From Candidatus Woesearchaeota archaeon (GTDB lineage: Archaea; Nanobdellota; Nanobdellia; SCGC-AAA011-G17; JACPNG01): 34,056 bases of DNA. The notes beneath the pieces were generated by a model that was not told where the DNA came from, did no database searches, and worked only from the letters and a program-made list of their open reading frames with translations. Shown here piece after piece: positions 1-28,211 of this stretch (position 1 is the first letter of the stretch; every line of letters begins with the position of its first letter). The position numbers and the translations under genes are program-made. The stretch lies in assembly GCA_016203135.1 (NCBI GenBank), contig JACQNI010000089.1, positions 1 to 34,056 of the forward strand, given 5' to 3'.

Positions 1-509
1 ATACAATTTTCTCTTTAACAAGCTTAACAATATTTTCCTTATTATTTTTACTGCTGCCTTTCATTATGTATTTTATTTATAAAAAGCTTGATTTAAAAAA
101 AATTTCTTATTTGTTCATAATATTTTTTCTTTTATCAAGTCTAATAAGCTACTCAGCTATTTATTTTAATTCAAATGAATATTGGTATAATAGCGATGAA
201 ATGCAGCTTGGCTTGTGGTTTAATAATTTTGACAAAGGAAACTCAAAAGTTTTGATCGATTCAAGTTATGATGGTAAAATATATAAAACTAATAGGGAAA
301 ATCTTTACTTTGGAGAAAGGGGAAGATCCTTTACGATTGTAGGCTTTTTCATGAATAATGAAATCAAAATCGGCAATGAAAATGATTTTAAAAATTTTGA
401 TTATTTCATAACCAAAAAAGAGATTGATTATCCATTGGTTAAAAAAATGAACAATCTTTATATATATGATATAAGGAGTTTAAAAAATGACAGACAAAAA
501 GCCAATTGA
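1..509 (+). CDS. C-terminal part of a membrane protein, probably a GT39/PMT-like or other polytopic glycosyltransferase (truncated by window start)
   Basis: Frame is open from base 3 with no stop (TIFSLTSLTIFSLLFLLLPFIMYFIYKK...). Hydrophobic helices are followed by a soluble tail. ORF-track start at 66 is internal. Family assignment is weak. Confidence 0.5.
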   Translation, partial: TIFSLTSLTIFSLLFLLLPFIMYFIYKKLDLKKISYLFIIFFLLSSLISYSAIYFNSNEYWYNSDEMQLGLWFNNFDKGNSKVLIDSSYDGKIYKTNRENLYFGERGRSFTIVGFFMNNEIKIGNENDFKNFDYFITKKEIDYPLVKKMNNLYIYDIRSLKNDRQKAN

Positions 510-1182
510 CCCGCATGATGTAGATGCTGCATTTCTAATACCTTATTATAGAAATCTATCTTTTATTATAGCTGAAAAAATCAAGAATACCAAAATAACT
601 CCAATGCAGATAACTTTTATTGCGCATTTCCTTGGCTTTCTTTCTGGTTTTTTCTTTTATCTTGCTGAATACAAATATTTAGTCATCGGAGTCATAGTCA
701 TATTTTTATCAAATCTGCTTGATTTTCTTGATGGATCTCTGGCAAGAATAAGAAAAGAAAGAACAAGGCTTGGCGGCTTTACAGATTATCTTGGAGATGC
801 ATTTAAATGGACAGCCATGTTTCTAGGTATAACTCTAGGAGTTTATAAAAATACAAATGACACAAGATTCTTGATTTTAGGCTTCCTGGCAACAACTTCT
901 TATATCTTGGCTAGGCTTGCTTATGAAGTTTATTTAAGATATTTTAGCGAGGTTGCTAATGATATAATAAAAACGCAGAAAGCTAAAAATAAAATAATAA
1001 CTCAATTTTTCTATGACGGCCAGCAATTGCTTCCATTGATAATGATTGCTGCTTTGCTAAACAAACTAAACTGGTTATTAATTCTATTTGGAATCTATGG
1101 TCCGATTTTTATTTTTATTGAATTTTTTGTAATGAGGTATAAAATTAAAAAAATAGATCCAAGAGGATTTCCTAAAGACTAG
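487..1182 (+). CDS. CDP-alcohol phosphatidyltransferase family membrane enzyme
   Basis: Full signature DG-x2-AR-x8-G-x3-D-x3-D: DGSLARIRKERTRLGGFTDYLGD, with several TM helices. SD-like AAGGAG lies upstream of the ATG at 487. Confidence 0.93.
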   Translation: MTDKKPIDPHDVDAAFLIPYYRNLSFIIAEKIKNTKITPMQITFIAHFLGFLSGFFFYLAEYKYLVIGVIVIFLSNLLDFLDGSLARIRKERTRLGGFTDYLGDAFKWTAMFLGITLGVYKNTNDTRFLILGFLATTSYILARLAYEVYLRYFSEVANDIIKTQKAKNKIITQFFYDGQQLLPLIMIAALLNKLNWLLILFGIYGPIFIFIEFFVMRYKIKKIDPRGFPKD

Positions 1183-1715
1183 ATTAGTTTTTTCTCGTCT
1201 AAAAAATTTACTAGTTTCTTTAAGCTTTCTTCTGGTTTTTCCTTATAAGGATATAAAACCAAGGCAGCATCTTCTGGCTTGTTAAACGGTAAGTCTATTC
1301 CCCTCAAGTCTGGCTTTTCTAGCTTCATGTTTTTTGCATAAACTCCTTTTGGATCATTTTTTATACAATCATTAATATCAGCATCCATGAATATTTCCAT
1401 GAAGTCTACTTTGTTTTTCATCATCTTTCTTAATTCTTCTGTGCCCATTATGCAGGTTATTACAACATCCTTTCCATTGCTAGACAATAAGCTAGCCCCA
1501 AAGCATAATCTTCTTCCTGATTCAGCCCTTGCCTCTTCTCCATAAGCTAAGTCATGATCAAAGAACTTCCTTGTTACATCCCCATCCAATATATAGATGT
1601 CTTTATTTCTTTCTTTATTCAAATAATCTTTTAGTAAATTAGCTAGATATGATTTGCCAGATCCAGATAAACCGCTGATTAAAAGTACAAATCCATTTTT
1701 GCTTTCTAATGTCAT
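1179..1715 (-). CDS. APS-kinase-fold P-loop kinase; candidate cytidine diphosphoramidate kinase (Cj1415-like)
   Basis: Walker A GLSGSGKS, LDGD motif, DPKGVYAK...GIDLPF as in CysC/Cj1415. The APS-kinase ISPYR segment is replaced by IMGTEELRK. No sulfate-assimilation genes in the window. Confidence 0.8.
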   Translation of the reverse strand: MTLESKNGFVLLISGLSGSGKSYLANLLKDYLNKERNKDIYILDGDVTRKFFDHDLAYGEEARAESGRRLCFGASLLSSNGKDVVITCIMGTEELRKMMKNKVDFMEIFMDADINDCIKNDPKGVYAKNMKLEKPDLRGIDLPFNKPEDAALVLYPYKEKPEESLKKLVNFLDEKKLI

Positions 1716-1755
1716 AAATTAATTAAGAACTAATATTTTAAAAATCTATCTTAAC

Positions 1756-2673
1756 TTAATATCCTTCAGCACGTCTCTCTAAGGCTAAGGTATATGTAAT
1801 TAATGCACCAGCACCAATTCCTGTAAAACTTTGTGGTTGTGAATTTACCAAAGTTTCAATAGATTTTTTATCATCTGGGATACTTAGCAGAACAGAATGT
1901 TCATATGCATCTGGTGGCAAATTTCTCTTTCTTAATTCCTCAGCTATTTGTGATTTTGAAGCTTTTTTTTGAGTTAGTTCTTCATATAAATTGTTCGCTT
2001 CCCTATTTGCCCTACAGATATGTTCAAATGTTGCATCTGTCCTTAAAGAATAAACAAAACTTGTATTTATTGGTCCAGGTCTATTTGCTTTAAAAACTCC
2101 AATTAATTCTTCATATGTAATACTGAAGTTCCCAACTTCTTCTAAAAATTCCTTTCTAGCAGCCTTGGCTATTGGATCTTCTAAATCAAAAGTAACCCAT
2201 CCAGCAGGTAAAACTCCATATAAACCCCTGCCGATTTTCTCTTTAGTTTCTGGGGTTATTTCAAGCCCTCTAACTCCAAACAAAATCTGATTTTCTTTAG
2301 TTTTTAAAATACATTGCACAGCAACTGGAGAAAATGGAATCTTATCACCAAAATATCCCTTATTAGCAGCTTTTATATCATAATTTGTAATCCAGTTTGT
2401 GCATATTAATGGAGTATCATCCATTTCTCCTGCATGCCAACTCCATAAACTAGGGTTAAATTGTATACTTATGTTATCCTTCAAATTTAAAATCTTCTCT
2501 CCATCAGAAACTCCTTTCAAACCGTAAACACTCGCCAACTCTTCCCATTTAACCTGTGGTTTATATAGTTCTATATTTGGTCTGCCTTCAAAATCTTCAA
2601 TACTATCACCGAACCTAAAATGAAGTAACTCAGCCTTAGGAAGTGCATATGCATGACTAAAAAGTTCGCTCAT
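1756..2673 (-). CDS. Nudix-hydrolase-like protein
   Basis: Nudix-box-like G(WVTFDLEDPIAKAA)RKEFLEEVG. ORF extends to 2745, but a TATA-like box (about 2696-2705) lies about 27 nt upstream of ATG 2673, so the shorter start is preferred. Confidence 0.7.
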   Translation of the reverse strand: MSELFSHAYALPKAELLHFRFGDSIEDFEGRPNIELYKPQVKWEELASVYGLKGVSDGEKILNLKDNISIQFNPSLWSWHAGEMDDTPLICTNWITNYDIKAANKGYFGDKIPFSPVAVQCILKTKENQILFGVRGLEITPETKEKIGRGLYGVLPAGWVTFDLEDPIAKAARKEFLEEVGNFSITYEELIGVFKANRPGPINTSFVYSLRTDATFEHICRANREANNLYEELTQKKASKSQIAEELRKRNLPPDAYEHSVLLSIPDDKKSIETLVNSQPQSFTGIGAGALITYTLALERRAEGY

Positions 2674-2704
2674 AAAATTAAACATTTCAAGTAATATATA
2701 AACT

Positions 2705-2741
2705 TTTCTATTTTTTACCACTAAAAAGTTTATATTATTAA
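2705..2741. repeat. Copy A of a 37-bp dispersed near-identical repeat
   Basis: tttctattttttaccactaaaaagtttatattattaa; 20-bp exact core accactaaaaagtttatatt shared with 4718-4737. Confidence 0.8.
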
Positions 2742-2778
2742 ACAAAATACTTAAAAGATTATATAATTAAATTAAAAC

Positions 2779-3336
2779 ATGAAATACAAGATTTTAGTTG
2801 GCGTCTCAAATAGGCATGTTCATATTTCAAAAGAACATTTAGAAATATTGTTTGGTAAAGGCTATCAATTAAAAGTTTTAAGAGAGATAAGGCAGCCAAG
2901 GCAATATGCAGCAGAAGAAACAGTTACATTGCTTGGAAAACAAGATTTGCAAGCAAGAATAGTGGGCCCATTAAGAGAAAAAACCCAAGTAGAAATACTA
3001 ACAACAGATCAATATGTTCTTGGTATAAAAGTTCCAAAAAAAGTCTCTGGTGATTTAGATAATACTCCAGGAATAAAGATCAAAGGTCCAAAAGGAATAA
3101 TAAATTTGGAAAACGGAGTAATTATTGCAGAAAAACACCTGCATTTATCTCAAGAAGAATCAGAAAAACTTAATCTATCAAATGGTTCTAGGGTTAATTT
3201 AGTACATGAAAATGGAACTAAATTTAATGCCATTGTCAGATCGGGCAAAGATCATTTATCAGAATTCCATTTAGACAAGGATGAAGCAGAATCTTTAAAC
3301 ATTAAAACCGGAGATTATGTAGAAATAGAATATTAA
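2779..3336 (+). CDS. pduL: PduL-like phosphate acyltransferase (phosphotransacylase)
   Basis: VGVSNRHVHIS..., QPRQYAAEETVTL, TQVEI-TD, AEKHLHLSQEE, EFHLDKDEA are PduL-family motifs, including the His metal ligands. Confidence 0.88.
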   Translation: MKYKILVGVSNRHVHISKEHLEILFGKGYQLKVLREIRQPRQYAAEETVTLLGKQDLQARIVGPLREKTQVEILTTDQYVLGIKVPKKVSGDLDNTPGIKIKGPKGIINLENGVIIAEKHLHLSQEESEKLNLSNGSRVNLVHENGTKFNAIVRSGKDHLSEFHLDKDEAESLNIKTGDYVEIEY

Positions 3337-4133
3337 TTCTTTTCTCCTATAACCACAACAACATTTCCAAAAGAGTTAGGAAATAATGTTGTTAAAGTTT
3401 TATATATGAAATTTCCGACTTTGTTTAATTTAAAGCCTTCGCTTCTTGCAGTTGGTTCTATCAATGAAGTAGATTTATCAATTTTTTGCAGTTCTTTCTT
3501 TCTAAAGATTTTTATTTTGAATAAAAAAGGCATGTTTGTAACAACTTGAACGCTCTCTACTTTTACTCCAGAATCTTCAACCATTTTCTTAAATTCTTTA
3601 GGCTTAAAAGACCATTTGTAAAACTTGTCCTTTTTCTTGTTTCTTGACTTGAATGCAACAATCAAATCTCCAATAGTATTTTCAAAATTATCTGCCCTTA
3701 CAGTAGCGCAAAATCTTCCATTTTTTTTTAAGCATCTTACAGTTTCATTTATTGTTCCTTGGACATCATTTTCAATGTTATGATATAATCCAAAAGAAAC
3801 TATGTAATCAAAAGTTTCATTCTTAAAAGGCAGCTTTCTTACATCTCCTTGCATCACATTTATATCTGGATGTTGTTTCTTTATTTTTTCTACTGCTCCT
3901 TTGTCATATTCTAACCCAATTATCTTATGTCCTTTAAGATGGTAATGCTTCAAAACCCTTCCTAAACCACAGCCACATTCAAGAATTAACCCATTTTTGT
4001 CTTTAATTGTCTGCATTGCATATTTTATTGGGTATATCTCTAGGTTATCAAAGTAGTCTTTATCTTCTCCTGCCTCTCTCCATCTCTTTTCCCAATAGCT
4101 TACAATATCTATGTCTCGATAAACCTTTTTCAT
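3333..4133 (-). CDS. Class I SAM-dependent methyltransferase
   Basis: Motif I LILECGCGLGRVLKH, motif II GDVRKLPF, FDYIVSFGLYHNI. Confidence 0.88.
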   Translation of the reverse strand: MKKVYRDIDIVSYWEKRWREAGEDKDYFDNLEIYPIKYAMQTIKDKNGLILECGCGLGRVLKHYHLKGHKIIGLEYDKGAVEKIKKQHPDINVMQGDVRKLPFKNETFDYIVSFGLYHNIENDVQGTINETVRCLKKNGRFCATVRADNFENTIGDLIVAFKSRNKKKDKFYKWSFKPKEFKKMVEDSGVKVESVQVVTNMPFLFKIKIFRKKELQKIDKSTSLIEPTARSEGFKLNKVGNFIYKTLTTLFPNSFGNVVVVIGEKN

Positions 4134-4230
4134 GATTTTCTAAATTAAGAAAAATTTATAATATTATTGCATAACTTCAGTCATTGCTAAAAAATAGTCT
4201 AAAAATACTTCTCTCAAAATTCTAAAGATT

Positions 4231-4722
4231 TTATTTCTTTTCAACGGGTTCAACAGCTTGGATATAATAATCTGTGCTGCCTCTCCAAGGCCAGCCCCAA
4301 AGAACTTCCCTATATCTTACTTTAACTTGAGTACCAGACTCAAGATATTCTTGTGCTTTTTTTGCTAATTCTTCTATGTTCTCTTTGTTTCTTGCTTGAT
4401 TGTCGATGCTAAAATCCCACACATTTGCCCCCATACGTTGCCCATCAGAAACTATACCTTCAAGAGCCATTTGTCCTTCGTAAGTTTTCCAAATAAGTCC
4501 TTTTTTAGAAATCTTATTGATCATGCCGGTTCTAATGCCATTAGAATACTCATGTGAGTTTGTATACGACCCACACCCCCCACCAAGAACAAAAACCAGA
4601 AAACCTATTCCAACAGCTTTATTAAAGCCCGAAATTATTTTACTAGCTATATCATAATTATCATCATAAACCATTAGGGGTATTAAACATGGGTTATTTA
4701 TTAATCTTTCTATTTTTACCAC
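4231..4722 (-). CDS. Small membrane-anchored hypothetical protein
   Basis: One hydrophobic segment (AVGIGFLVFVLGGGCGSY), then SNGIRTGMINKISKKGLIWKTYEGQMALEG, a motif type I associate with small conserved hypothetical proteins. GTG start at 4722 or ATG 4674 is uncertain. Confidence 0.55.
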   Translation of the reverse strand: MVKIERLINNPCLIPLMVYDDNYDIASKIISGFNKAVGIGFLVFVLGGGCGSYTNSHEYSNGIRTGMINKISKKGLIWKTYEGQMALEGIVSDGQRMGANVWDFSIDNQARNKENIEELAKKAQEYLESGTQVKVRYREVLWGWPWRGSTDYYIQAVEPVEKK

Positions 4723-4743
4723 TAAAAAGTTTATATTTATTAA
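4707..4743. repeat. Copy B of a 37-bp dispersed near-identical repeat
   Basis: tttctatttttaccactaaaaagtttatatttattaa; differs from copy A only by two single-T indels. Confidence 0.8.
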
Positions 4744-4750
4744 GAAAACC

Positions 4751-6031
4751 TTATATAAGCTTCTTCTCTTTCAAAGCGCCATAGATTATTTTAGCAACAA
4801 ATTGATTTCCTTCATTGCTTATATGAGCTCCATAAACAGTTTTCTCAGAATACAAAGAATCTATATCTGGATGATTTATTATCGGAGTTGTAACATCTAT
4901 TGTATCTATTTTTTCACTTATCTTTTTAAAAAAAGGCATGTAAAATTCTCCTTCATTTTTATAATATAACGCTTCATTTTTCTGTGGTAAGAAAACAAAA
5001 ACAGGCTTGAACTTTAATTCCTTGCTTAAATCCAAAAATCTATCAACCAATCTTTCCATTAAATCAACAGCATAAGCCTCATTATACAATCTGACAGCCC
5101 ACAAAAGATTTATTCTTCTTATTACCAGCATTGCATCAGAATCCATTGGCTCCATAACCTTATATTTCTGAGAAAATTTTTTCATAACAGTTTGTTTTGC
5201 AACTTTATAGATTATGCTTAAATTTCTTCTTGGATTCTTTAAAACATGAAATGAATAAGGAAATTTAATTAAGTCTTTCAAAAATTTTTCCTTGTAAAAA
5301 TAATCATGCTTTTTTAATTCATCAATATATTTTTCCAGTTCATAAAATTTTTCTGGTTTGTCAATTAAATTAGGCACCAATCTTAATTGTTTATTTACAT
5401 CCAGTTCATACCTTGGCTTGAAAGCCCAAACATTTCCATATTCATAAAAATGCTTCCAGTAGCTTACTACCCTGCTTATTGTATCAGGAACATTAGCCAT
5501 TATAACAATTTTAGTTTTATTTTTAGGAAACTCTCTCTCAAGTCTTAACAAAGCCTGATCCATTCCATGATTTCCAATACCCCAATTTAGAACATTTGAT
5601 TTGGTTAATTTAGACAAGTAATAGCACCAAGTTTCATTGTCATTAACTTGCCTAGAAAAAGTAAATGAATCTCCATAGCAAGAAATAAGCTTGTCATTTA
5701 AATTTTCCAAATCTTGATTATTTCTAGAACTCCTTTTGTTTATAGTCCAAGGAGCTTTTCTATAATCCCAATCCCCATCATCTTTTTGATAAAATATAGT
5801 GTCATTTCCAGTTGTATTTGGCTTCCTCACCCAGCCTAGTTCTGAATCAAAACCCTTTTCAAAATATTTTGTCTTCTCTAAAGCTTCTTTGTCGATAAGA
5901 GGTATCTCGTCATCTTTCTTTGTTATTAGCCATTGAAATCTTTTTCTAGTAGATCTAACTAAAACATAAGACGCTAGCTCTAAAACAACAATAATTAAAG
6001 CTACAATAACTAAGGAGATTAATAATGACAT
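4751..6031 (-). CDS. Single-TM SGNH/GDSL-like hydrolase or transferase
   Basis: N-terminal TM helix. SGNH block I YGDSFTFSRQVNDNETWCYYLSK, GIGNHGMDQALLRLER, and C-terminal His block AHISNEGNQFVAKII. Confidence 0.75.
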   Translation of the reverse strand: MSLLISLVIVALIIVVLELASYVLVRSTRKRFQWLITKKDDEIPLIDKEALEKTKYFEKGFDSELGWVRKPNTTGNDTIFYQKDDGDWDYRKAPWTINKRSSRNNQDLENLNDKLISCYGDSFTFSRQVNDNETWCYYLSKLTKSNVLNWGIGNHGMDQALLRLEREFPKNKTKIVIMANVPDTISRVVSYWKHFYEYGNVWAFKPRYELDVNKQLRLVPNLIDKPEKFYELEKYIDELKKHDYFYKEKFLKDLIKFPYSFHVLKNPRRNLSIIYKVAKQTVMKKFSQKYKVMEPMDSDAMLVIRRINLLWAVRLYNEAYAVDLMERLVDRFLDLSKELKFKPVFVFLPQKNEALYYKNEGEFYMPFFKKISEKIDTIDVTTPIINHPDIDSLYSEKTVYGAHISNEGNQFVAKIIYGALKEKKLI

Positions 6032-6045
6032 AAACCTTAACCTTA

Positions 6046-6828
6046 CTAAAATTTAATAAACCTTTTTATAGAGCCATCTTCAAGCCAAGAATTAGCCTTT
6101 TCATAATCTTCATTGTTGTCAAATTCCATCCAGCCCCTAGTCACTATTATTGGTTCAACTTCATAGCCATTATTTATCAAAGCCTGCAGCATGCAAGTCA
6201 TATAAGCTTTTTTAAAGGATTTAGACCTTAACCAAGGCTCATTTTTATCATAATATTTTTTTCTATTCTCATGATAAACTTTCTTTAAAGCTTCAATCCC
6301 TTTCTTTGAAAATTTTATTAATCCAACATATCTTACTTTAGCTTTGTCCAAACTGCAATGTGTTTCCCCCAATTCAACTATTCTTCCATTATTAATAACT
6401 AAACTTTCTACATCATCTTTATAATTATCCATCCTTGCTTTCCAGTAATCCCAATAATCATCATCAACAGTAACCCCAATATCAGCTTTGCTTTGCAAAA
6501 TTTTTTGGATGATTCTTTCTTCATATAAAATATCTGCATAACAAACCAGAATTTCATCATTTAACTCATTTTCAGCTGCAAACAATGTTTCAACCATGTT
6601 CGTATCTGCAAAATCTTCATTGAGATAGTATTTTACCCCTTTAATATTTATTTTATCAGGCATATATCCTTTGACAATTGTTATATCATTTATCCCAGCT
6701 TTTCTCAAGGTTTCAACCTGTCTCTCAATCAAGGTTTTTCCACTAAAATTTAACATACATTTAGGTAAACCTTCAGTATACTTAGCTAATCTAGTACCCA
6801 TTCCTGCTGCAAGAATTATTGCTTTCAT
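6046..6828 (-). CDS. Sugar-nucleotidyltransferase-fold cytidylyltransferase (LicC/Cj1416-like; candidate CTP:phosphoglutamine cytidylyltransferase)
   Basis: MKAIILAAGMGTRL...LPKCML, NMVETLF, CYADILYEE, NNGRIVELG, RYVGLIKFS, YMTCMLQALI, GWMEFDNNEDY. ATG at 6828 preferred over the TTG at 6849. Confidence 0.85.
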   Translation of the reverse strand: MKAIILAAGMGTRLAKYTEGLPKCMLNFSGKTLIERQVETLRKAGINDITIVKGYMPDKINIKGVKYYLNEDFADTNMVETLFAAENELNDEILVCYADILYEERIIQKILQSKADIGVTVDDDYWDYWKARMDNYKDDVESLVINNGRIVELGETHCSLDKAKVRYVGLIKFSKKGIEALKKVYHENRKKYYDKNEPWLRSKSFKKAYMTCMLQALINNGYEVEPIIVTRGWMEFDNNEDYEKANSWLEDGSIKRFIKF

Positions 6829-6940
6829 TTTATCGATAAAATTAATCAATCAATTATTTTAATCTTTCTATTAAAACTTTATAGTGATAAAAAAGGAAGG
6901 TTTTTAAACTTTTTTATTATCTATAAATTTGGGGTTAAAA

Positions 6941-7855
6941 ATGAAGCATTTGATAAAATTACATAGGCATGGGCCAAAAAATAATAATCCAGAAGCGCAT
7001 CAAACAGGAGTAGAAGCTTTACTAGATCCTGAAAAAATACCAGAGATAAAAAAATACGCACTTAATCAACTAAATCGAGATGAATTAGCTGGATTAGCTT
7101 ACAATACAGATACCACTTCAATAGAAATTGAAACAACCCCAATTGATAGATCAAAAGCTACTGGTGAAATAGTATACAACACCCTTATTAATTATTACAC
7201 TGGTCTTGATGAGATTTATTGGCCCGCTTTAAAAATTACAAAAAATCCAAGGATTAATGAACTAATTGGATCAGCTGGAATAAACCCGAAAACTGGCGAA
7301 GCAGTAAACCTAGGGCCTAGAGCAATGTCAAATATTTGGGGAGAAGCAAAAAAACATGAAGATTACAAACACTTACAAGGAGAAAATAAACCCCTTTATG
7401 CTTGGTGTAGACAAGGATTTGATAACACTCAAGCTAACAACCAGAGTGATCCAGGAATATCATTGAGAGAGATTGCTTGTAGAATAGGAACATATGTTTA
7501 TAATAAATTTACACAAACAGAAGGAAATCAGAATGATAGAATTCTTACATTAGCCTTAGGTCATTCAGGGGATATTGAACCTTTCTTATATTTATGCTTA
7601 GAAATGCAAGCAGGTAGAGATGGTAAAGATCCTGAAGCGATGACAAAATGGTTTAAAGAAACTGGTGGAGCATTGGAACCTCTTAAAGGAATTGAAATAT
7701 TAAAAGAAAAGTTAGGGTTAGAATTACATTATCATAAAACACCTCACAACACATATCTAAGTCCTATTGGTCTTGAAATTTTCCAACAACAGGCCCAATG
7801 GTTCAAAGAATATGGAAAAAGCAAGGAAGTTCTAGAGCAAAAATTAAGATTATAA
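6941..7855 (+). CDS. Histidine phosphatase superfamily-like protein
   Basis: N-terminal LHRHGPKNN and C-terminal ALGHSGDIEPFL His motifs. ATG at 6941 preferred over the upstream TTG. Confidence 0.75.
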   Translation: MKHLIKLHRHGPKNNNPEAHQTGVEALLDPEKIPEIKKYALNQLNRDELAGLAYNTDTTSIEIETTPIDRSKATGEIVYNTLINYYTGLDEIYWPALKITKNPRINELIGSAGINPKTGEAVNLGPRAMSNIWGEAKKHEDYKHLQGENKPLYAWCRQGFDNTQANNQSDPGISLREIACRIGTYVYNKFTQTEGNQNDRILTLALGHSGDIEPFLYLCLEMQAGRDGKDPEAMTKWFKETGGALEPLKGIEILKEKLGLELHYHKTPHNTYLSPIGLEIFQQQAQWFKEYGKSKEVLEQKLRL

Positions 7856-7856
7856 A

Positions 7857-8837
7857 ATGAAAAGTCATATTATCGGCATAGGTAAAGAGCCTAGATGCAT
7901 ATTAGTGGAAAAAGTTAAACATTATGCTAGAGATTTAATTGACGATGATGTTGGATCTAGAGAAAACTGGATTGATGTGATACAGAATCATACACATTAT
8001 TCTCCTAGACAAAACAAACCCAGTTTAAAAGACACACGCACAAATGCTTATGGTAGGCCATTTAAAATAAGGATCGATTCATTAGACGACCAGAAATATG
8101 TTGAATTTCAAACTTTACTAAGACAAGAAATTACTAACCATGCCTCTAGTAGATCAATAAATCTTGAAATAGATAATGAAATTGGATTAGATAAATCATT
8201 AGAAGGACTTATTTTTTATAATGCAGGTGAACCTGATTTAGTAGCCCAAGGGTTAGGAATTGGAGTCTCTATGGACAATAGAGCTTTAGATGAGACTAAT
8301 AAGAGTCTTAATGTCCTATTGGTGGATAAAGAAGCCCTATTTTTTTATCTTTATTTTATGGAAAAACTAGAAAAGAAATCTAATCTTAATTTTATGATAA
8401 ATAAAATCTTTGACAGTACTTATTATTCTGATAAGCCTCTTGATGTTTTTCTCGCTGATTATTTTGCAATTCCAAATTGGAATAAAAAATTTCACAAAGT
8501 TTTGTCTTCTATTACCAGTAAAGAAGTTAATAAAGTTAGATGGTTAGCTTCCAGAAAGGATCTTTTAGAAAGCTCTTCTAATGGCACTTCTCTCAAATTT
8601 CACTTTTCTCCTGATTTCAGAACTTATTCACCTTTGTGTAATGCTGAATTTTTATATTATGAAACCGATGGATCTGACTATTTAGAAATAAGATCAAATA
8701 TAAAGCGGATGAAAACCAATTTTGGTTCTATACATATTAATAAAACTGATTGTTATGCTACTCCAATAGGGATCTTTTTACAAGTCCATAATGATCTATT
8801 AAATTTCTCAGAGAGTAAGAAAATGATAAATGTTTAA
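7857..8837 (+). CDS. Hypothetical protein, no recognised domain
   Basis: Long ORF immediately after the preceding stop in the same operon. No motif recognised. Confidence 0.7.
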   Translation: MKSHIIGIGKEPRCILVEKVKHYARDLIDDDVGSRENWIDVIQNHTHYSPRQNKPSLKDTRTNAYGRPFKIRIDSLDDQKYVEFQTLLRQEITNHASSRSINLEIDNEIGLDKSLEGLIFYNAGEPDLVAQGLGIGVSMDNRALDETNKSLNVLLVDKEALFFYLYFMEKLEKKSNLNFMINKIFDSTYYSDKPLDVFLADYFAIPNWNKKFHKVLSSITSKEVNKVRWLASRKDLLESSSNGTSLKFHFSPDFRTYSPLCNAEFLYYETDGSDYLEIRSNIKRMKTNFGSIHINKTDCYATPIGIFLQVHNDLLNFSESKKMINV

Positions 8838-8862
8838 AGATATTATTTATTCAATAATTTAA

Positions 8863-9825
8863 ATGACAAAATTACCTTTTTTATGGCAAGTAAAAAAGAA
8901 TGAAGCGGTTTCTTATCTACTTGGAACAGCTCACCTAAAAGAAAAAGATGAGTCAATAGAAGAATCAACAAAAGATTTAGCATCAAAAGTAAGAGTTATG
9001 TATGTAGAAACACCAGAAGACTTCCAATTACAGGAACGCCACATTACTCTTCCAGAAGGTCAGAGAATAGATGATTTTCTAACCCAAGATGAAATAGATA
9101 ATATGCATTCATTTTTCCAAGAACATTATCAAAGATTCCTTTTTCCAGAAGAGATAAAAGAAAAATTTGATGAAATGCACAGAAAAAAATTATGGTATAT
9201 AACTTCAGAAATTTCAAGCATCGCTTATTCTGATGAAGAAATTGAATATCTAGCCGCTTGCAAAAGATTAAAAGAACTTAAGCAAAGATTTTTTGGATCA
9301 ATTATATTACCACAAAGAGAAGAAATCTTAAATATAAGATCTGAAGCAATCGATTTAGTAAAAATAATTCAAAATTATGAAACCAAAACAGATAAATCTA
9401 TACCAACATTAGACAATTCTCTTAGATTTGCTATGAAATCATCTGGAATAAAAATAATTGGTTTAGACGAACCAGATGAATACTCAAAAATTTATGATAG
9501 TTTAAGTATTGAAGCTCAAAAACAAATATTATTTAAAGAGATTGAAGAGGTAAAATCTGGAAAATTTTTTAATAATGATCAAATTAGATCATATAAAAAA
9601 GGAGACTTAGAGGCACAACTAAAAAGTTTTGAAGCAAAAAATCCAGTAGATCAAGAATTTGTAGATAATGTTTGTCACGGAAGAACAGCATTATGGTATC
9701 CTAAGACTCAAGAAGATATAAAAATTGGAAGAACTCTTATTGCAGTTGGTACATCTCACTTCTTAACAGAACATGGTTATATTGCCATGCTAGAAAAAAA
9801 TGGATACGAAGTAAAAAAGTTATAA
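8863..9825 (+). CDS. TraB/GumN-like (Tiki/ChaN superfamily-like) protein
   Basis: N-terminal SYLLGTAHL and C-terminal IAVGTSHFLTEHGYIAMLEKNGYEV, typical GxxH/TraB blocks. Confidence 0.8.
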   Translation: MTKLPFLWQVKKNEAVSYLLGTAHLKEKDESIEESTKDLASKVRVMYVETPEDFQLQERHITLPEGQRIDDFLTQDEIDNMHSFFQEHYQRFLFPEEIKEKFDEMHRKKLWYITSEISSIAYSDEEIEYLAACKRLKELKQRFFGSIILPQREEILNIRSEAIDLVKIIQNYETKTDKSIPTLDNSLRFAMKSSGIKIIGLDEPDEYSKIYDSLSIEAQKQILFKEIEEVKSGKFFNNDQIRSYKKGDLEAQLKSFEAKNPVDQEFVDNVCHGRTALWYPKTQEDIKIGRTLIAVGTSHFLTEHGYIAMLEKNGYEVKKL

Positions 9826-9828
9826 ATT

Positions 9829-10515
9829 TTATTTCCAAAACAATTCCCTATTCAAAAAAGCTTTGATTAATTTTTCATTTTCTTTTTCATTTAGACTTTT
9901 TCTTTCTGGATGCCAGTTTATTCCAACAATAGGCAAGCCACTATGATAAAATCCCTCTATTACTCCATCTTTAGCCCTTGCAAATATTTTTAACTTAGGA
10001 GATAAATTTTTTTTATCGCTTCCATAATTATGATAAGAATTCACTTCCATTTTGCTTCCAAATAATTTTTTTGCTTTTTCATCAACGATTTCAACTTCAT
10101 GAACAGAAGCAACATGATTTACTTTATCCCCAATAACTTCTTTTATATTAATCAATTTTCCTCCGAAATAAACATTGATAAATTGAGATCCTCTACAATT
10201 TCCTAAAACAGGCAGCTTTCTCTTGACAGCAATGTCCATTAATTTTCTTTCAGTATTATCCCTTTCATTAGTAATGCTCATTCCATTTTTAATTTTTTCT
10301 CCATAAAGCTCAGGATTCACATCATTCCCACCAGTCAAGATAATCCCTTCAATAGGAAGTTTCTTAAAGTAAATATCCAAGTTTTTGCTTGAATTTGGAA
10401 CTACAAACAATTCTATTCCAAATTTCTCATAGTAACTTACATAATTATTTTCTAGATTGTCAATTAAATCCCCATGCTTGTTTTTGTCATTTCTTTGTGA
10501 AATAGCTATTAACAT
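9829..10515 (-). CDS. Class I glutamine amidotransferase-like / peptidase C26-like hydrolase; candidate gamma-glutamyl-CDP-amidate hydrolase (Cj1417-like)
   Basis: ILTGGNDVNPELYGE, nucleophile elbow GNCRGSQF (Cys codon 10195-10197), HEVEIV, INWHPER His/Glu. Lies 1 nt from the glutamine-kinase-like gene. Confidence 0.88.
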   Translation of the reverse strand: MLIAISQRNDKNKHGDLIDNLENNYVSYYEKFGIELFVVPNSSKNLDIYFKKLPIEGIILTGGNDVNPELYGEKIKNGMSITNERDNTERKLMDIAVKRKLPVLGNCRGSQFINVYFGGKLINIKEVIGDKVNHVASVHEVEIVDEKAKKLFGSKMEVNSYHNYGSDKKNLSPKLKIFARAKDGVIEGFYHSGLPIVGINWHPERKSLNEKENEKLIKAFLNRELFWK

Positions 10516-10516
10516 T

Positions 10517-13420
10517 TTACTCCCTCAATGGAACTATTTTTTTATTCTCGCAGTCTAATAAAATAGAAGAAGAATTTTTTAACCTTTCGAATGATTCACC
10601 GCATCCAATAGCTGCTGGAATCCCAAATTCAGCGCATCTAACAGCCATATGCGATGCAACCCCGCCGTATTTTGTCACTAATCCAGCTATATCCTTTGTA
10701 AAAATCCAGTCATAGCCAGGATCACCATTTTCAAGAATTACTATCTTGTTCCTTAAGTCTGGCAGATCTTCCTTTTCCATTTTGCTTAAGTCTACAATCT
10801 CGCTTTCTATTTTCTTATTAGTTATAAAATTAGGTTTCGCCATGTAATAAGGAACAACATCAAAATCCTTCTGGGAAAATACAACTGAAGGTAAGGAAAG
10901 CTTATTGTTCAATGTCCTTTCTTGCTTTCTTACTTCTATTAGGCTTTTCCAAAATTCCTTTGTCTCAAAGCTGCCATTCTTGGCAAAATCAATTAAGGTT
11001 TCAACATCCAAGTTAGCTAATTCCTCCCTAGTAAATCCCATAACCTTTCCAGCATCAGAAATTAATTCTAAAGCATGGCTTAAATTCTTGCTGAACTCAA
11101 ATTTTAATAACTCCCTGCCTTCTAAAGACTCTTGAATAAATTCAAACAATTTTTCAGAATTAAAATCTAGTCCATTTTCCTTTAAAGTCTTTGAAATATT
11201 TTCATGAATTTCTTTATCTATAACAAATTCTGATTTTTTATTCTCAGAATTTTTAACTATGTTTGCATTGTTAAAGATATTATTGTTTTTATCATATCTT
11301 AAGCTTGTTATATCATAAGTTCCAGGCCTTAAATGTCCATATCTCTCTAAAAATTCTTCCTGGGTTAATTTTCCATTAACAAGTTGGTTAAAATGAGCAT
11401 TTATTTCAGTCGCAACAGTATTTATGGAATTTAAAAAATTATCATAAAATTTTTCATCAATAATTTTTTCCTTGACCATGCTCTTAAGCAATATCTTTCC
11501 TATAAATGCAAGCCTTGCAACCCTGGAAAATTGCAAAGTTCCATTTTCCTTGCAATCATCTAAAAGAAATACAGCTTGTTTTACTAAATCTTTTGGGTCA
11601 TTTGAATTTTTCATGTTTTCTTTTGTTTTTTTTCTTGACTCTTCCATCTTGATTGCAGCATTCATATCTTCATCAATGTCTTTGTCAGAATTATTTACAA
11701 GCTTGTTTGTCAATTCAATCAAAGATCTCTTGAAAACTTCTACTTCTTCTTTAGTAAAACCAGCTTCAATTAATTCCTTGCTTCTTTTGTCAAAAGTCAA
11801 GTCATAGCAGGTATAAACAATATCAAATTCTACCTTATCTTGTAATTCTGGATTTTTTTTCAATTTGTTCATGTAAAAATGAACAAGTTTTTCCCTTAGA
11901 CTTCTATTAATAGAATTTGGTATAAAAGAATTGAATGTATTCCTTACATCAACATATGGCTTGTTTCCAAATAATACTACCAATCTAGCAGGATTTACAT
12001 TATTATATCCTTGGGAAGATCTTGCTTTATGCCATATGTCATTTGTTATTATATAATCATATAAAGAATAAGACAAATGATTTGGATTATCTCCTATGAT
12101 TTCTGCAGGATTCCAGTCAGGCATGTCTCCAAAACAATTAAAGTCTCCAGAAATATGCTCCTTTTTCCTTGATAATTCAAAAAACTTTGTTTTTATGCTT
12201 TCTACCTTTTTTCTTATCTCATTATCAACTACTTCATCATCATGATGCTTTGCAGCAATTGGCCTCACTTGAAATATGACAATATCATTATCCTTTGTTA
12301 CAGCAAACTCAATATCTAAAGCTATTCCAGGAATCAAATCCTCTATTTCCTTGACAGCCTCAAATAATTTTGTAAAATTTCCTGGATAATCTTCAGGCTT
12401 GCAAAACCTTGAGATCTTTACAGTTTTATTTTCAAATCCAGAAGTAACTCTATTGGTTAAATTTGTTGTGTCATCATAATTTATTACATAATATGGGGCA
12501 TTATTTTCAATGGTTCTTGTAAAAATAACCCCGCTAAGTTTAATATTCTCTGTCTGGGATTGTATAAGTATTTGATTTAATGGATTTTCAAAATTACCAT
12601 CCTTGTAAGACTTAACAACCCTTTCTATTGCTTCTTCAGTCTTTTTTATGTCATTTGATTTAACATTTAATTCAGTATAAAATCTTCCTGCCATAGACGA
12701 TTGAAATGTATCTTCATTTAATGCAGAACTTCTGACAACAATATCTCCTGGAGAAAACTCCTCTTTAATCTTTGATAACAAATCTTGTTTATTTTCATCC
12801 CATTCAGAAGAAGTAAATACAAATGTTTTTTCTACTTTTGATTTTTTTAAAAAAGGAAACAAAGATCTTAAAGTATCAGCTTTAGTTGAAACAATTGTCT
12901 TTCTTGCCTTTTCCTTGTCATAGTATATAAAATCCTTAAGCCTGAAATAATTGGTAAATTCTTCAAAATGCCTGAACTTCCCCCTATACTCTTCAAGTAA
13001 TCTATTAATAATATTAACTTCAGAAATCCTTAATTCTGGTGTTGGTTGTTTTATCTCTCCATTTATTTCTTTTATATAATCCTCTCCAGGAATTTCTTTC
13101 CATCCAGAGCCATAAACCAATATAATTTTAGCATCCTTAAATCTTTCATGTATCTTCTTTAAATTTTCAGTAGGATCAACTTGATCTTGAACAATAGCTT
13201 CATCTACAAACCTTAGATTCTTAACTACCTCTAGTCTTTCATCAAGATTTGATATTGGTTTGTTTCTAGCATCCTTAGCAGCCTTATCACTTAAGACCCC
13301 GCAGATATGATAATCCCCCTGGGAATTAGCAAACTTTAGTAGCTTTAAGTGCCCATAATGAAAGATATCTCCGACTATTGGACTATATACAATTCTCTCT
13401 ATTTTTCTACCCTCTTCCAT
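10517..13420 (-). CDS. Fusion: N-terminal HxGH cytidylyltransferase + PEP-synthase-like ATP-grasp + central region + phosphohistidine domain; candidate L-glutamine kinase (Cj1418-like)
   Basis: N-term VGDIFHYGHLKLL...DERLEVVKNLRFVDEA. ATP-grasp VVRSSALNEDTFQSSMAGRFYTELNV and IEFAVTKDNDIVIFQVRP. C-term TKYGGVASHMAVRCAEFGIPAAIGCGE, His codon at 10649-10651. Confidence 0.9.
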   Translation of the reverse strand: MEEGRKIERIVYSPIVGDIFHYGHLKLLKFANSQGDYHICGVLSDKAAKDARNKPISNLDERLEVVKNLRFVDEAIVQDQVDPTENLKKIHERFKDAKIILVYGSGWKEIPGEDYIKEINGEIKQPTPELRISEVNIINRLLEEYRGKFRHFEEFTNYFRLKDFIYYDKEKARKTIVSTKADTLRSLFPFLKKSKVEKTFVFTSSEWDENKQDLLSKIKEEFSPGDIVVRSSALNEDTFQSSMAGRFYTELNVKSNDIKKTEEAIERVVKSYKDGNFENPLNQILIQSQTENIKLSGVIFTRTIENNAPYYVINYDDTTNLTNRVTSGFENKTVKISRFCKPEDYPGNFTKLFEAVKEIEDLIPGIALDIEFAVTKDNDIVIFQVRPIAAKHHDDEVVDNEIRKKVESIKTKFFELSRKKEHISGDFNCFGDMPDWNPAEIIGDNPNHLSYSLYDYIITNDIWHKARSSQGYNNVNPARLVVLFGNKPYVDVRNTFNSFIPNSINRSLREKLVHFYMNKLKKNPELQDKVEFDIVYTCYDLTFDKRSKELIEAGFTKEEVEVFKRSLIELTNKLVNNSDKDIDEDMNAAIKMEESRKKTKENMKNSNDPKDLVKQAVFLLDDCKENGTLQFSRVARLAFIGKILLKSMVKEKIIDEKFYDNFLNSINTVATEINAHFNQLVNGKLTQEEFLERYGHLRPGTYDITSLRYDKNNNIFNNANIVKNSENKKSEFVIDKEIHENISKTLKENGLDFNSEKLFEFIQESLEGRELLKFEFSKNLSHALELISDAGKVMGFTREELANLDVETLIDFAKNGSFETKEFWKSLIEVRKQERTLNNKLSLPSVVFSQKDFDVVPYYMAKPNFITNKKIESEIVDLSKMEKEDLPDLRNKIVILENGDPGYDWIFTKDIAGLVTKYGGVASHMAVRCAEFGIPAAIGCGESFERLKNSSSILLDCENKKIVPLRE

Positions 13421-13468: not shown

Positions 13469-14419
13469 ATGAAAAGCTATTTAAACCAAATTCAGGCTAA
13501 AACCAAGATGAAAAAGATTTACTGGAATTTCTTGAAATCAATCCTAGGAATTATGCTTTTAGTCATTTTATTCAATAAACTTGGCTTTTCAAATGTCTAT
13601 AAAATATTAATAGACACAAGCATAACTCATATCTTTCTTGCAGTTTTAATTTCTATCTCTTCAATCCTGCTTGGGGCATTTAATCTAAAAATTCTTCTTC
13701 ATTTCATTAAGGCTAAAATAAGTTTCTCAGATCTTTTAAAAGTCTATTCTTTAAGCTGGTCAATCGGATTATTTCTTCCTGGAAGAATAGGAGACTTTTC
13801 CATAATCCCCCTTCTGGGAAAAAAGGGCTTAGATTTCGGAAAAGGGGCTGCAATCTCATTCCTTGATAAATTAATAACTTTTATTGTATTATCAATATTG
13901 ACAATTTTTGCTGTTTTTATCTATCTCCCTATTGAACAGGCATGGATAATATTAATTGTAATAGTCTCTATAATAATTTTAACAGGTTTATTCTTAATTT
14001 TGGATAAAGGCAGACAATTTATAAGAAGCTTATTTCCCAAGAATTTAATTGAAAAATTTTCAGGATTTTCCTATATTTTGTTTGATTTTCTTAAATATGG
14101 AAAAACATACATATTCTTGAATTTTTTAATAACAATTCTTAAGCAAGTTATTTTAGCATTGATAATCTATGCCTTCCTTGCAAGTTTTAACATCTATTTG
14201 TCATTTATCGAGATATTATTAATAATTTCGGCAATAACAATAATTACCTTGATCCCAATTTCAGTTTCTGGCTTGGGCATAAAAGAATCAGCTGCAGTAT
14301 TTTTGTTTGGCTTAGCAGGATTAGATAAAATAATAGTTGCGGCAATATTTACATTATTACTTATAGCAAGATATGTTATAGGAGCACTATTAATCTATTT
14401 CATTAAGCTAGAAAATTAA
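13469..14419 (+). CDS. Lysylphosphatidylglycerol synthase TM-region / UPF0104-like membrane protein
   Basis: Polytopic; LPGRIGDFSIIPLLGKKGLDFGKGAAISFLDKLI and SVSGLGIKESAAVFLFGLAGL. ORF-track start 13349 runs antisense into the neighbour; ATG 13469 fits the promoter (13508 also possible). Confidence 0.85.
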   Translation: MKSYLNQIQAKTKMKKIYWNFLKSILGIMLLVILFNKLGFSNVYKILIDTSITHIFLAVLISISSILLGAFNLKILLHFIKAKISFSDLLKVYSLSWSIGLFLPGRIGDFSIIPLLGKKGLDFGKGAAISFLDKLITFIVLSILTIFAVFIYLPIEQAWIILIVIVSIIILTGLFLILDKGRQFIRSLFPKNLIEKFSGFSYILFDFLKYGKTYIFLNFLITILKQVILALIIYAFLASFNIYLSFIEILLIISAITIITLIPISVSGLGIKESAAVFLFGLAGLDKIIVAAIFTLLLIARYVIGALLIYFIKLEN

Positions 14420-15969
14420 TTTTCTGCAACAGCAAGTTCTTGCCCGCTTCCTGCTTCAATGCCAATACTTTCCTTGCCTTTATGTTTTATACTCTTAACT
14501 TCAACCCCATAATCTAAGTCTTCAGAATAAAAGTTTTGTGTAGCAATTAAAGTTCTTAAGCTTCTATACAATCTTGGTACATCAGAAAATCTTCTTATTG
14601 TTTTTAATGTCTGCCAGTAAAATCTAGGCCTAAAATAAAACTCATTATACATTTTTGCCAATATACCTTCAACATATTCCTTATTGGTATTATCCTCCAT
14701 TTCCATCAAAACCCCATGAGTCATATCCCAGTCGCTCCACTTCTTTGCTTTTAACTTTCCTTGTAATTTTGCCTCTTCATATAAAGGAGTTCCTGGAAAG
14801 GGCAATGCAATTGAAGTCTGCATGACATCTGGATTTATTTCCTTTACAAAATCAAGATTTGCTTGTATCGATTCCTTTGAGTCAGACCAGAATCCAAACA
14901 TGAAACCACATAAGCATAATATTCTATATTTCTGAACCATTTTAACTCCTTGCCTTATCTGGTCTAATGTTAAATTCTTTCTTATTGCTTTTAAAACCTC
15001 TGGAGTGCTAGCTTCAACCCCAAATCTCAACATCTTGCATCCGGTTTTTCTCATCCATTTCAACATCTCTTCCCCAAGTTCTGCATTTCTTGTTAAATTG
15101 TCAAACCTGGCATTTGCTGTCCATATTAACTTTATATCATTTCTATGTAATGCCTTGCAAAACTCAATCACTCTTTCAGGTCTTATTGTAAAAGTTGGAT
15201 CATCAATATTTATTTCTTTAATGCCATAAACCTCAATCAATTCCTTTAATTCAGCAATTACATTTGGTATAGACCTCATTCTCCATACCTTTCCTTCCAT
15301 AACATTATTAGAAATGCAAAACGTGCAAGCTTGAGGACATCCCCTTGTTGTTTGTATTGTTGTAAATGGCCTTACATTATACCATGCCTCTCCATAATCT
15401 TTTATTGGTATTATATCTCTAGCAGGAAAAGGTAATCTATCTAAATCCTTTTCCCATCTTCCAGGCCCATTGTCAAATACTTCTCCTTTAGATCTATAAG
15501 CAATCCCTAATACATTAGTTAAGTCATCCTTGTTTTCTAGAATTCCAGGTATCCAAGGGTCAAATTCTCCTTTGACAACAACATCTATTGCATCACACTC
15601 TTGCAGCGATTGAACTGGCAATGCTGATACATGCTGTCCTGCAGCTATCAAAAATAAATTTGGTAATTTTTCTTTAACCCTCCTCATGAATTCAAAATCT
15701 GCTAAAATAGAAGGGGTTGTTGTTTCAAGCAGCATAGCATCAGGATTTATCTCTTCAATTTTTTTTAGTGTTTCATTTAGATCTATTTCCTGAATAACTG
15801 AGTCAATCCAATAAACCTCATGATCATTTTGCCTTAGATTAGAGGCAGCATATGATAAAAACAATGGGTATTGCAAGAATTTGTCAGCCCTATGTTTTAT
15901 TATTCTATTTTGTGATCTAGTTCCATATCCCTTTCCAGGCCAAGGCGGATTTATAAGTAAGACTTTCAT
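14416..15969 (-). CDS. B12-binding-domain radical SAM protein
   Basis: N-term MKVLLINPPWPGKG Rossmann-like domain. Radical SAM cluster TTRGCPQACTFC. LPFPGTPLYEEA. Confidence 0.92.
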   Translation of the reverse strand: MKVLLINPPWPGKGYGTRSQNRIIKHRADKFLQYPLFLSYAASNLRQNDHEVYWIDSVIQEIDLNETLKKIEEINPDAMLLETTTPSILADFEFMRRVKEKLPNLFLIAAGQHVSALPVQSLQECDAIDVVVKGEFDPWIPGILENKDDLTNVLGIAYRSKGEVFDNGPGRWEKDLDRLPFPARDIIPIKDYGEAWYNVRPFTTIQTTRGCPQACTFCISNNVMEGKVWRMRSIPNVIAELKELIEVYGIKEINIDDPTFTIRPERVIEFCKALHRNDIKLIWTANARFDNLTRNAELGEEMLKWMRKTGCKMLRFGVEASTPEVLKAIRKNLTLDQIRQGVKMVQKYRILCLCGFMFGFWSDSKESIQANLDFVKEINPDVMQTSIALPFPGTPLYEEAKLQGKLKAKKWSDWDMTHGVLMEMEDNTNKEYVEGILAKMYNEFYFRPRFYWQTLKTIRRFSDVPRLYRSLRTLIATQNFYSEDLDYGVEVKSIKHKGKESIGIEAGSGQELAVAEN

Positions 15970-16086
15970 AAAGATCCCTTTTTGCAGTTGATATTGTTAT
16001 TCTGCTATTTAAAAGTTTTACTATGGTGAATTAATATATCCATTTAATTCATCAAGTAGTCTATGGCTTAACTTATGAAATTTAAA

Positions 16087-16103
16087 AGAAAATTATTTAA
16101 GTA
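16087..16103 (+). promoter_or_regulatory. BRE/TATA-like promoter of ROK kinase
   Basis: agaaaattatttaagta centred about 26 nt upstream of ATG 16123. Confidence 0.55.
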
Positions 16104-16122
16104 TATGGTATAAATCTCTAAA

Positions 16123-16995
16123 ATGTCCATTGAATGCTATGACATTGGGGGTACTTGGATTAGAGGGGCTATTTTTAATGAAAACAGAAAAATTGTTAAA
16201 AAAATAAAAAAGGAAGTAGTAAAAGACTTCTGCTCACAAATAAAACAAATTCACAAAGATCTATCTTCAAAATCATCATCAAAAATTTCTATTGCAGTTC
16301 CAGGTCCAGTTTCAAATGGCTTATTGACAAAGGCACCACCATTAGGTATAGACTATCCAATTGATTTAAAGAAAGAACTAAAAGATCTTGGCAAAGAAAT
16401 TTATATTGAAAATGATTTAAATGCAGCAGTTGAAGCTGAATTAAATTTCGGAACAGGAAAATATTGTAATAATTTCTACCTGCTAACAATAAGCACCGGT
16501 ATTGGTGTTGGATTAGTTCTTAATAAAAATATAATACAAGGAACATCAGGTGAATTTGGTCACAATGTACTTGAAAGGAGAAATGAATTTCTATTTAAAT
16601 GTGGCTGTGGAAATTATGGTTGTTGGGTTTCGTTATGTGGCGGGAATGGTATAAAAAATCTTGAAAATAAATTAATTGGCAAAAATTTAAGTCCTGCAGA
16701 AGTTTTCGAAAGAGCAAAATCAGGGGATAAAAAAGCAAAGGATTTAGTTAAAAGAGTCAGGGATTACAATGCACAAGGTCTCGGCATCATGATAAATGCA
16801 ATAGAGGTTGATAAAATAATTATCATGGGATCAATCGGTTTAGAGCAATTCTCTCAAATAATTCCAAAATATTCTCAAATAAGAAATTATACAATAAACA
16901 AAATACCAAAAATAGAAAGGACTTCTTTAGGAGATGATATCTGCCTGATAGGGAGTTATCTCATTGCAAAAGATGGAAGAAATAAAGATTTGTAA
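16123..16995 (+). CDS. ROK family sugar kinase
   Basis: YDIGGTWIRGAIF, ENDLNAAVEAELNFGTG, STGIGVGLVL, GEFGHNVL, Zn motif CGCGNYGCWVSLCGG. Confidence 0.9.
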   Translation: MSIECYDIGGTWIRGAIFNENRKIVKKIKKEVVKDFCSQIKQIHKDLSSKSSSKISIAVPGPVSNGLLTKAPPLGIDYPIDLKKELKDLGKEIYIENDLNAAVEAELNFGTGKYCNNFYLLTISTGIGVGLVLNKNIIQGTSGEFGHNVLERRNEFLFKCGCGNYGCWVSLCGGNGIKNLENKLIGKNLSPAEVFERAKSGDKKAKDLVKRVRDYNAQGLGIMINAIEVDKIIIMGSIGLEQFSQIIPKYSQIRNYTINKIPKIERTSLGDDICLIGSYLIAKDGRNKDL

Positions 16996-17036
16996 CAAAC
17001 TCAGCCTAAAATTCTGCTGTTTAAATATATTTTGAT

Positions 17037-17051
17037 AAAGATTTATAAATA
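17037..17051 (+). promoter_or_regulatory. BRE/TATA-like promoter of GT2
   Basis: aaagatttataaata centred about 28 nt upstream of ATG 17073. Confidence 0.65.
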
Positions 17052-17072
17052 TATTACCTATAAGAAATCAAA

Positions 17073-17957: not shown

Positions 17958-17990
17958 ATTAGTTTTATTTCTTTAAAGTAGATACAAACA

Positions 17991-18005
17991 AAAGATTTTT
18001 AAATA
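17991..18005 (+). promoter_or_regulatory. BRE/TATA-like promoter of 18025 gene
   Basis: aaagatttttaaata centred about 27 nt upstream of ATG 18025. Confidence 0.65.
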
Positions 18006-18024
18006 ATTCGGTTTACATATTTAA

Positions 18025-19026: not shown

Positions 19027-19033
19027 TTTAGTG

Positions 19034-20122: not shown

Positions 20123-20168
20123 TTTACCCTCTAACTTTTATATCTTTTATATCCCTATTTAAGGTTTG

Positions 20169-21915: not shown

Positions 21916-21993
21916 TTTATAGATAATAAGGTAAAAAATAAAAAGGTTTCTATGAAATTTTTGTCTTTACGCTAACCTATTAGCAATACAGAA

Positions 21994-23424: not shown

Positions 23425-23497
23425 GTTTTAAATATCCCCTTTTATATGGTTTAAAAGATAGATTATAGATTAAAAATAGATTATAAAGATTTCTATA

Positions 23498-24382: not shown

Positions 24383-24398
24383 AAAGATAAAACATTAT

Positions 24399-24411
24399 AA
24401 AAATTTATAAA
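24399..24411. promoter_or_regulatory. Shared palindromic TATA box of divergent pair 24382(-)/24433(+)
   Basis: aaaaatttataaa; palindrome tttataaa (24404-24411) is 25.5 nt from both start codons. Confidence 0.65.
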
Positions 24412-24432
24412 CCTGCTTATTAAAATCTTTAG

Positions 24433-26685: not shown

Positions 26686-26701
26686 GTATCATAATCAATG
26701 A

Positions 26702-26717: not shown

Positions 26718-26735
26718 TGTTGATAAAAAATATTT

Positions 26736-27725: not shown

Positions 27726-27728
27726 AAA

Positions 27729-28193: not shown

Positions 28194-28211
28194 TACTTAA
28201 AAGGTGTCACT

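Follow-up and report, generated by a model that had tools for sequence, protein, structure and literature searches.

A candidate phosphoramidate donor locus with a cytidylyltransferase-fused kinase in a Woesearchaeota-like archaeon

Introduction

Phosphoramidate, a rare phosphorus-nitrogen group, has so far been studied biochemically only on the capsule of Campylobacter. In Campylobacter jejuni, the enzymes Cj1415-Cj1418 convert glutamine, ATP, and CTP to CDP-phosphoramidate 3'-phosphate (PMC11800397). The transfer genes of Campylobacter are Cj1421 and Cj1422, no role is assigned to Cj1419 and Cj1420, and the methylation and transfer steps are not biochemically resolved (PMC11800397). The glutamine kinase was termed 'C. 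jejuni-specific' in a 2022 review (PMC9561416). Here, a candidate locus for the same donor is described in Candidatus Woesearchaeota archaeon (assembly GCA_016203135.1, contig JACQNI010000089.1). The single entire contig, 34,056 nucleotides, was analysed and is called the window below. The host archaeal genome is 0.91 Mb and 93% complete.

Two further systems are close to the locus. A methyl-phosphoramidate cluster was predicted from structures in an archaeal setting, i.e., the Borg extrachromosomal elements (PMC12660748). Phosphoenolpyruvate (PEP) mutases are found fused to PF01467 or MobA-type cytidylyltransferases, e.g., Fom1 (PMC6697681). A preliminary description of the window regarded the phosphoramidate pathway as experimentally characterised only in Campylobacter. 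This agrees with the literature, in which an archaeal occurrence was already predicted for Borgs (PMC12660748).

The Core Genes

Four core genes were named in the preliminary description, and all are intact open reading frames (ORFs) on the minus strand, i.e., a fused candidate glutamine kinase (10517-13420, 967 aa), a gamma-glutamyl-CDP-amidate hydrolase-like C26/GATase enzyme (9829-10515, 228 aa), a candidate LicC/Cj1416-type CTP:phosphoglutamine cytidylyltransferase (6046-6828 from an ATG, or 6046-6849 as the longest ORF, from a TTG), and an adenosine 5'-phosphosulfate (APS) kinase-like gene (APSK, 1179-1715, 178 aa), a candidate CDP-phosphoramidate 3'-kinase with the P-loop GLSGSGKS. The family assignments were borne out by Pfam, with APS_kinase at 1.9e-30, NTP_transf_3 at 5.2e-16, Peptidase_C26 at 6.5e-37, and PPDK_N and PEP-utilizers in the kinase. 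The interpretation of these genes as a phosphoramidate donor locus gained support from the score of the kinase model, the best model of the hydrolase, the APSK tree, and an exact co-occurrence of genes. The four family assignments stood, but the description had overlooked the domain fused to the kinase and three further genes, which encode a methyltransferase, a membrane-anchored SGNH protein, and a CDP-alcohol phosphotransferase. We give the phosphoramidate donor pathway a probability of roughly 80%, with every reaction inferred.

Candidate Glutamine Kinase

Residues 171-965 of the kinase matched the NCBIfam equivalog model NF004508 with 884 bits against a cut-off of 501, and nearly the entire model was covered. 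The cut-off was reached in none of 14 control genomes. The model itself is named only 'hypothetical protein', and its gene partners suggest that it represents the glutamine kinase (Cj1418) family. Residues of about 1-150 form a HIGH-type cytidylyltransferase with an HYGH motif (Pfam CTP_transf_like at about 7-145), and residues of about 171-967 form ATP-grasp and swivelling phosphohistidine domains. His924, in the SHM motif, was invariant across 30 relatives.

PEP synthase was rejected as the identity of the kinase. The PEP_synth model gave 46 bits against a cut-off of 740, and the C-terminal PEP/pyruvate-binding barrel of PEP synthase was absent, since only PPDK_N and PEP-utilizers were found by Pfam in this part. 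In structure prediction, a check that the preliminary description had proposed, the AlphaFold model (predicted local distance difference test score, pLDDT, 87; predicted template modelling score, pTM, 0.76) was nearest to rifampin phosphotransferase (RPH; 5hv1, E 4e-20), and the architecture is therefore that of an ATP-grasp with a swivelling His domain. No Cj1417- or Cj1418-type entry was found among solved structures. A plasmid search gave only kinases of 29-36% identity, labelled 'PEP-utilizing enzyme' or similar.

Among 85,462 species genomes scanned, 194 relatives of the kinase were found, of which the best 80 were examined; locus counts refer to 79 loci, the window included. The kinase has three builds in these loci: 29 kinases are unfused, 20 have a HIGH-type domain fused to them as in the window, and 30 carry another N-terminal extension. 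The HxGH motif was kept in 19 of the 20 HIGH-fused kinases. The second motif of the fused domain is eroded in the window, where RISEVNI stands against RLSTxKI in several relatives. Within the other extension, 26 kinases matched a LicC-like enzyme profile. About 26 kinases (e.g., L071, L078, and L092; Marinobacter, Pseudomonas, and haloarchaea) have this diverged LicC-like N-terminus, with the glycine loop LGAGKPFxG or LGAGRPFAG in place of LAAGxGTRL. At L038:9373-11055 (genome G122), an orphan relative or a fragment matches just the C-terminal portion (435-963) of the kinase, and neither hydrolase nor cytidylyltransferase lies nearby.

The best fold match of the N-terminal domain was the cytidylyltransferase domain of Fom1 with bound CMP-phosphonate (5x3d, TM 0.82 by target). 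Ten related DPANN genomes (L039-L048) have phosphonate clusters, in which PEP mutase is N-terminally fused to a CTP_transf_like domain. The same genomes encode a separate hairpin plus HIGH-type nucleotidyltransferase of about 180 aa, 45-52% identical to the N-terminal domain of the kinase. These stand-alone domains beside PEP-mutase fusions, together with the Fom1 match, would fit a phosphonate (C-P) pathway in the window as well. However, the 93%-complete host genome has no PEP mutase (PF13714) and the window no phosphonate genes, so a phosphonate pathway is barely credible and was rejected.

Co-occurrence and Distribution

In 377 genomes of the host phylum, the full-length kinase, the close hydrolase, and the close cytidylyltransferase were searched. 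The three genes were present in exactly the same eight genomes and none elsewhere, always near each other. The naive chance of this is 1e-16, with the genomes not being independent. The eight carriers belong to different genera spread over seven families, and in one of them, G206, the reading frame of the kinase is broken into pieces. The conserved co-occurrence that the preliminary description had proposed to look for in related genomes is therefore exact (8/377).

Among the best 80 of the 194 kinase relatives, the carriers were DPANN archaea, Altiarchaeales, haloarchaea, Omnitrophota, Planctomycetota, Bacteroidota, Bacillota, Pseudomonadota, and others, and no Campylobacter locus was among them. 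At least 66 of the 79 loci have the hydrolase near the kinase, and at least 63 have the cytidylyltransferase there. Both are minimum counts, since several contigs stop close to the kinase and archaeal sequences were used to seed the profiles. As close versions of the gene set are spread over many phyla of bacteria and archaea, this chemistry is probably not peculiar to Campylobacter but widespread.

Hydrolase and Cytidylyltransferase

The best NCBIfam model of the hydrolase was NF045546, i.e., gamma-glutamyl-CDP-amidate hydrolase, at 103.7 bits, under the cut-off of this model. The same model was matched by all 15 of 15 cluster hydrolases tested, and Cys107, His202, and Glu204 are conserved in the alignment. 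The best PDB match of the LicC-like protein was LicC (1jyk, 4e-17), and no curated model of the Cj1416 family was among its matches. Seven further genomes of the phylum encode copies with 59-72% identity, and these genomes are exactly the other carriers of the kinase. A natural 500-aa fusion of hydrolase and LicC-like cytidylyltransferase was found in Pacearchaeota (L056:12399-13901).

The kinase may instead act on another amide or amino acid, which would lead to a different CDP-activated N-phospho compound and not to phosphoramidate. Room for this comes from the putative nature of both the likeness of the window kinase to Cj1418 and the substrate range of the class, and the title of one paper describes the C. 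jejuni phosphoglutamine cytidylyltransferase as promiscuous with Mn2+. However, throughout the phylum the kinase is always accompanied by an enzyme of the gamma-glutamyl-CDP-amidate hydrolase type, which fits a glutamine-derived intermediate, and a different substrate is considered quite improbable.

APS-kinase-like Gene

APSK was at most 37% identical to any other protein in the phylum. In the tree, it joins cluster-linked kinases of Omnitrophota (L124) and Cohnella (L065) (98/89). The three belong to a larger clade of 26 entries, 23 of them cluster-linked, which is separated (99/97) from E. coli CysC and the majority of archaeal APS kinases. The apsK model gave 108 bits, under its cut-off of 138.7. 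ATP sulfurylase (PF01747) was not found in the host genome, which is 93% complete, and PF01507 gave only a sub-threshold match there, which makes a CysC role unlikely. CysC of sulfate assimilation was accordingly rejected as the identity of APSK, on the tree placement, the lack of PF01747, and the apsK score. Two archaeal APS-kinase-like genes (L133 and L134, in G361 and G092) also fall within the phosphoramidate-cluster clade, and their genomes have no kinase match.

The preliminary description had named CysC, PEP synthase, a PuuD-type hydrolase, and sugar-1-phosphate nucleotidyltransferases as the families to which the four proteins might belong instead. This was checked and did not turn out so. 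The broad Pfam names would suit four unrelated housekeeping enzymes when each is taken singly. Such a reading is very improbable, and was rejected, given the exact co-occurrence and the trees; the NF004508 and NF045546 results, the fold matches, and the absence of ATP sulfurylase and of the PEP-synthase C-terminal domain also speak against it.

Methyltransferase, SGNH Enzyme and the Six-gene Operon

An S-adenosylmethionine (SAM) methyltransferase (3333-4133, minus strand), a candidate phosphoramidate O-methyltransferase, was 31-43% identical over nearly its full length to methyltransferases of 11 phosphoramidate loci. A membrane-anchored SGNH/GDSL-fold protein (4751-6031, minus strand), a candidate transferase or esterase, has copies of 28-61% identity in phosphoramidate loci. 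Its Ser122 and His403 are invariant, and its AlphaFold2 model (pLDDT 87) has an SGNH fold.

A tight operon of six genes was found in some bacteria, in two orders, i.e., kinase-hydrolase-nucleotidyltransferase-APSK-SGNH-methyltransferase (L097 and L109) and methyltransferase-APSK-SGNH-kinase-hydrolase-nucleotidyltransferase (L063 and L116). All six operon genes have homologues in the window, at 24-65% identity. The methyltransferase and the SGNH enzyme are therefore placed, by sequence comparison, in the putative phosphoramidate gene set.

The linkage statistics are uncorrected for relatedness unless stated, and the tree-based tests were underpowered or negative. APSK and methyltransferase were linked at 11/22 against 1/57 (79 loci, Fisher 8e-7). 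The tree-based test gave the same direction in all informative independent pairs, only three to four in number (p 0.25), and the linkage is regarded as suggestive. Fused kinases also seemed to exclude APSK (Fisher 1e-5), but this was dropped, as the tree-based test gave 1.1 pairs one way and 2.5 the other.

CDP-alcohol Phosphotransferase

The gene at 487-1182 (plus strand) encodes a CDP-alcohol phosphotransferase (PF01066, 6.8e-13), a candidate for the final phosphoramidate transferase. Its motif DxxDGxxARx8GxxxDxxxD is intact, and the gene shares four bases with the end of the APSK gene, which lies on the opposite strand. CDP-alcohol phosphotransferases replace the CMP in a CDP compound with an alcohol, and CDP-NH2 would therefore be a chemically natural donor. 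This is the sole PF01066 gene of the host genome. The single CDP-alcohol phosphotransferase genes of G133 and G143 lie 2-3 kb from the kinase, the sole one of G359 lies about 380 kb from it, and 7 of the 20 HIGH-fused loci have such a gene close to the kinase. As a hypothesis, the last-step transferase is this enzyme, and the SGNH enzyme is the alternative.

These observations bear on a pathway of three core genes, in which the kinase, nucleotidyltransferase, and hydrolase would make CDP-NH2 for direct transfer by the CDP-alcohol phosphotransferase, with APSK and methyltransferase unrelated. The seven nearby genes and the only copies in the host, G133, and G143 fit this version, as does the lack of APSK and methyltransferase within 10 kb of the kinase in the other 19 HIGH-fused loci. 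However, the window APSK lies inside the cluster-APSK clade, the strong matches of the window methyltransferase are cluster methyltransferases only, bacterial loci combine exactly these genes, and the only CDP-alcohol phosphotransferase of G359 is distant. A three-gene pathway is thus considered unlikely, and the full donor pathway with APSK and methyltransferase is preferred.

Proposed Pathway

Phosphoglutamine and CTP would be joined either by the LicC-like enzyme or in the Fom1-like domain fused to the kinase. Hydrolysis of gamma-glutamyl-CDP-amidate by the C26 enzyme would yield glutamate and CDP-NH2, to which the APS-kinase-like enzyme would add the 3'-phosphate. The methyltransferase would probably methylate the phosphoramidate, which the CDP-alcohol phosphotransferase or the SGNH enzyme would transfer onto a surface glycan or lipid. 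Judged from its genes, the donor pathway is probably complete in this DPANN archaeon, methylation included.

The analysis itself shows the gene content, the families of the core enzymes and their co-occurrence, the conservation of the operon, and catalytic motifs that are intact. Membership of the Cj families appears likely from curated models, co-occurrence, and context. The acting transferase, the acceptor, and the role of the fused domain are the most speculative parts.

Several points weigh against the full pathway. The six genes are scattered over 12 kb with opposite-strand genes in between, and the hydrolase scores below 250, the cut-off of NF045546. Between APSK and its cluster relatives the identity is only 24-39%, and since the genome is 93% complete, the failure to find ATP sulfurylase falls short of proof. 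The window is the only HIGH-fused kinase locus examined that has APSK and methyltransferase, so part of its gene set is unusual for its kinase class.

Other Genes of the Window

The locus is interrupted by plus-strand genes at 2779-3336, 6929-7855, 7857-8837, and 8863-9825, and further minus-strand genes lie between the four. The plus-strand gene at 2779-3336, amid the cluster genes, encodes a PduL-type phosphate propanoyltransferase. A 329-aa protein between APSK and the methyltransferase (1756-2745) is Nudix-box-like by eye; it had no Pfam match and no homologue among the other phosphoramidate loci.

By Pfam, the region at 14416-33597 gives a surface-glycan context, i.e., glycosyltransferases, a Wzx/MATE-type flippase (24433-25974), a sugar epimerase (32641-33597), and methyltransferases. 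Three proteins of the B12-binding/radical-SAM type are also encoded there (14416-15969, 21994-23424, and 28212-29672), two by Pfam and the third by resemblance only.

Comparison with Known Systems

The Campylobacter biochemistry and the structure-based Borg prediction are already known. What is new is the predicted occurrence in cellular DPANN archaea, together with the operon of six genes, the fusion of the kinase to a cytidylyltransferase domain, and the candidate enzymes for methylation and transfer. With 194 kinase relatives, and the next two enzymes adjoining in most of those examined, what seemed an oddity of a pathogen would become a general P-N surface chemistry. The conserved methyltransferase, SGNH enzyme, and CDP-alcohol phosphotransferase are candidates for the methylation and transfer steps of Campylobacter, and the kinase fusions, which resemble those of PEP mutases, make the part played by cytidylyl activation testable. 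A broader picture can be offered only tentatively and is doubtful as a whole: phosphoramidate surface decoration would be widespread in prokaryotes in parallel to phosphonate, with glutamine kinases fused to cytidylyltransferases of two unrelated folds, and archaeal transfer by the CDP-alcohol phosphotransferase would yield an unseen phosphoramidate lipid or glycan.

As with Cj1415-Cj1418 of C. jejuni, probable members of the four enzyme families lie together in a surface-glycan locus of the window, with the expected catalytic motifs present. It differs in its archaeal host, the cytidylyltransferase-fused kinase, and the associated methyltransferase, SGNH enzyme, and CDP-alcohol phosphotransferase. 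The Borg cluster has the same predicted decoration in an archaeal setting, whereas Borgs are elements of methane-oxidising archaea and the window is part of the genome of a DPANN cell, for which co-occurrence and a tree also provide evidence. RPH shares the ATP-grasp and swivelling phosphohistidine architecture of the kinase, but its substrate domain is different, the identity is 14-16%, and RPH inactivates an antibiotic. In the Fom1/PEP-mutase fusions, an enzyme forming a P-X bond is likewise N-terminally fused to a cytidylyltransferase, with the same two fusion kinds. The bond is C-P and the enzyme a PEP mutase in the Fom1 type, whereas in the window the bond would be N-P and the enzyme a candidate glutamine kinase.

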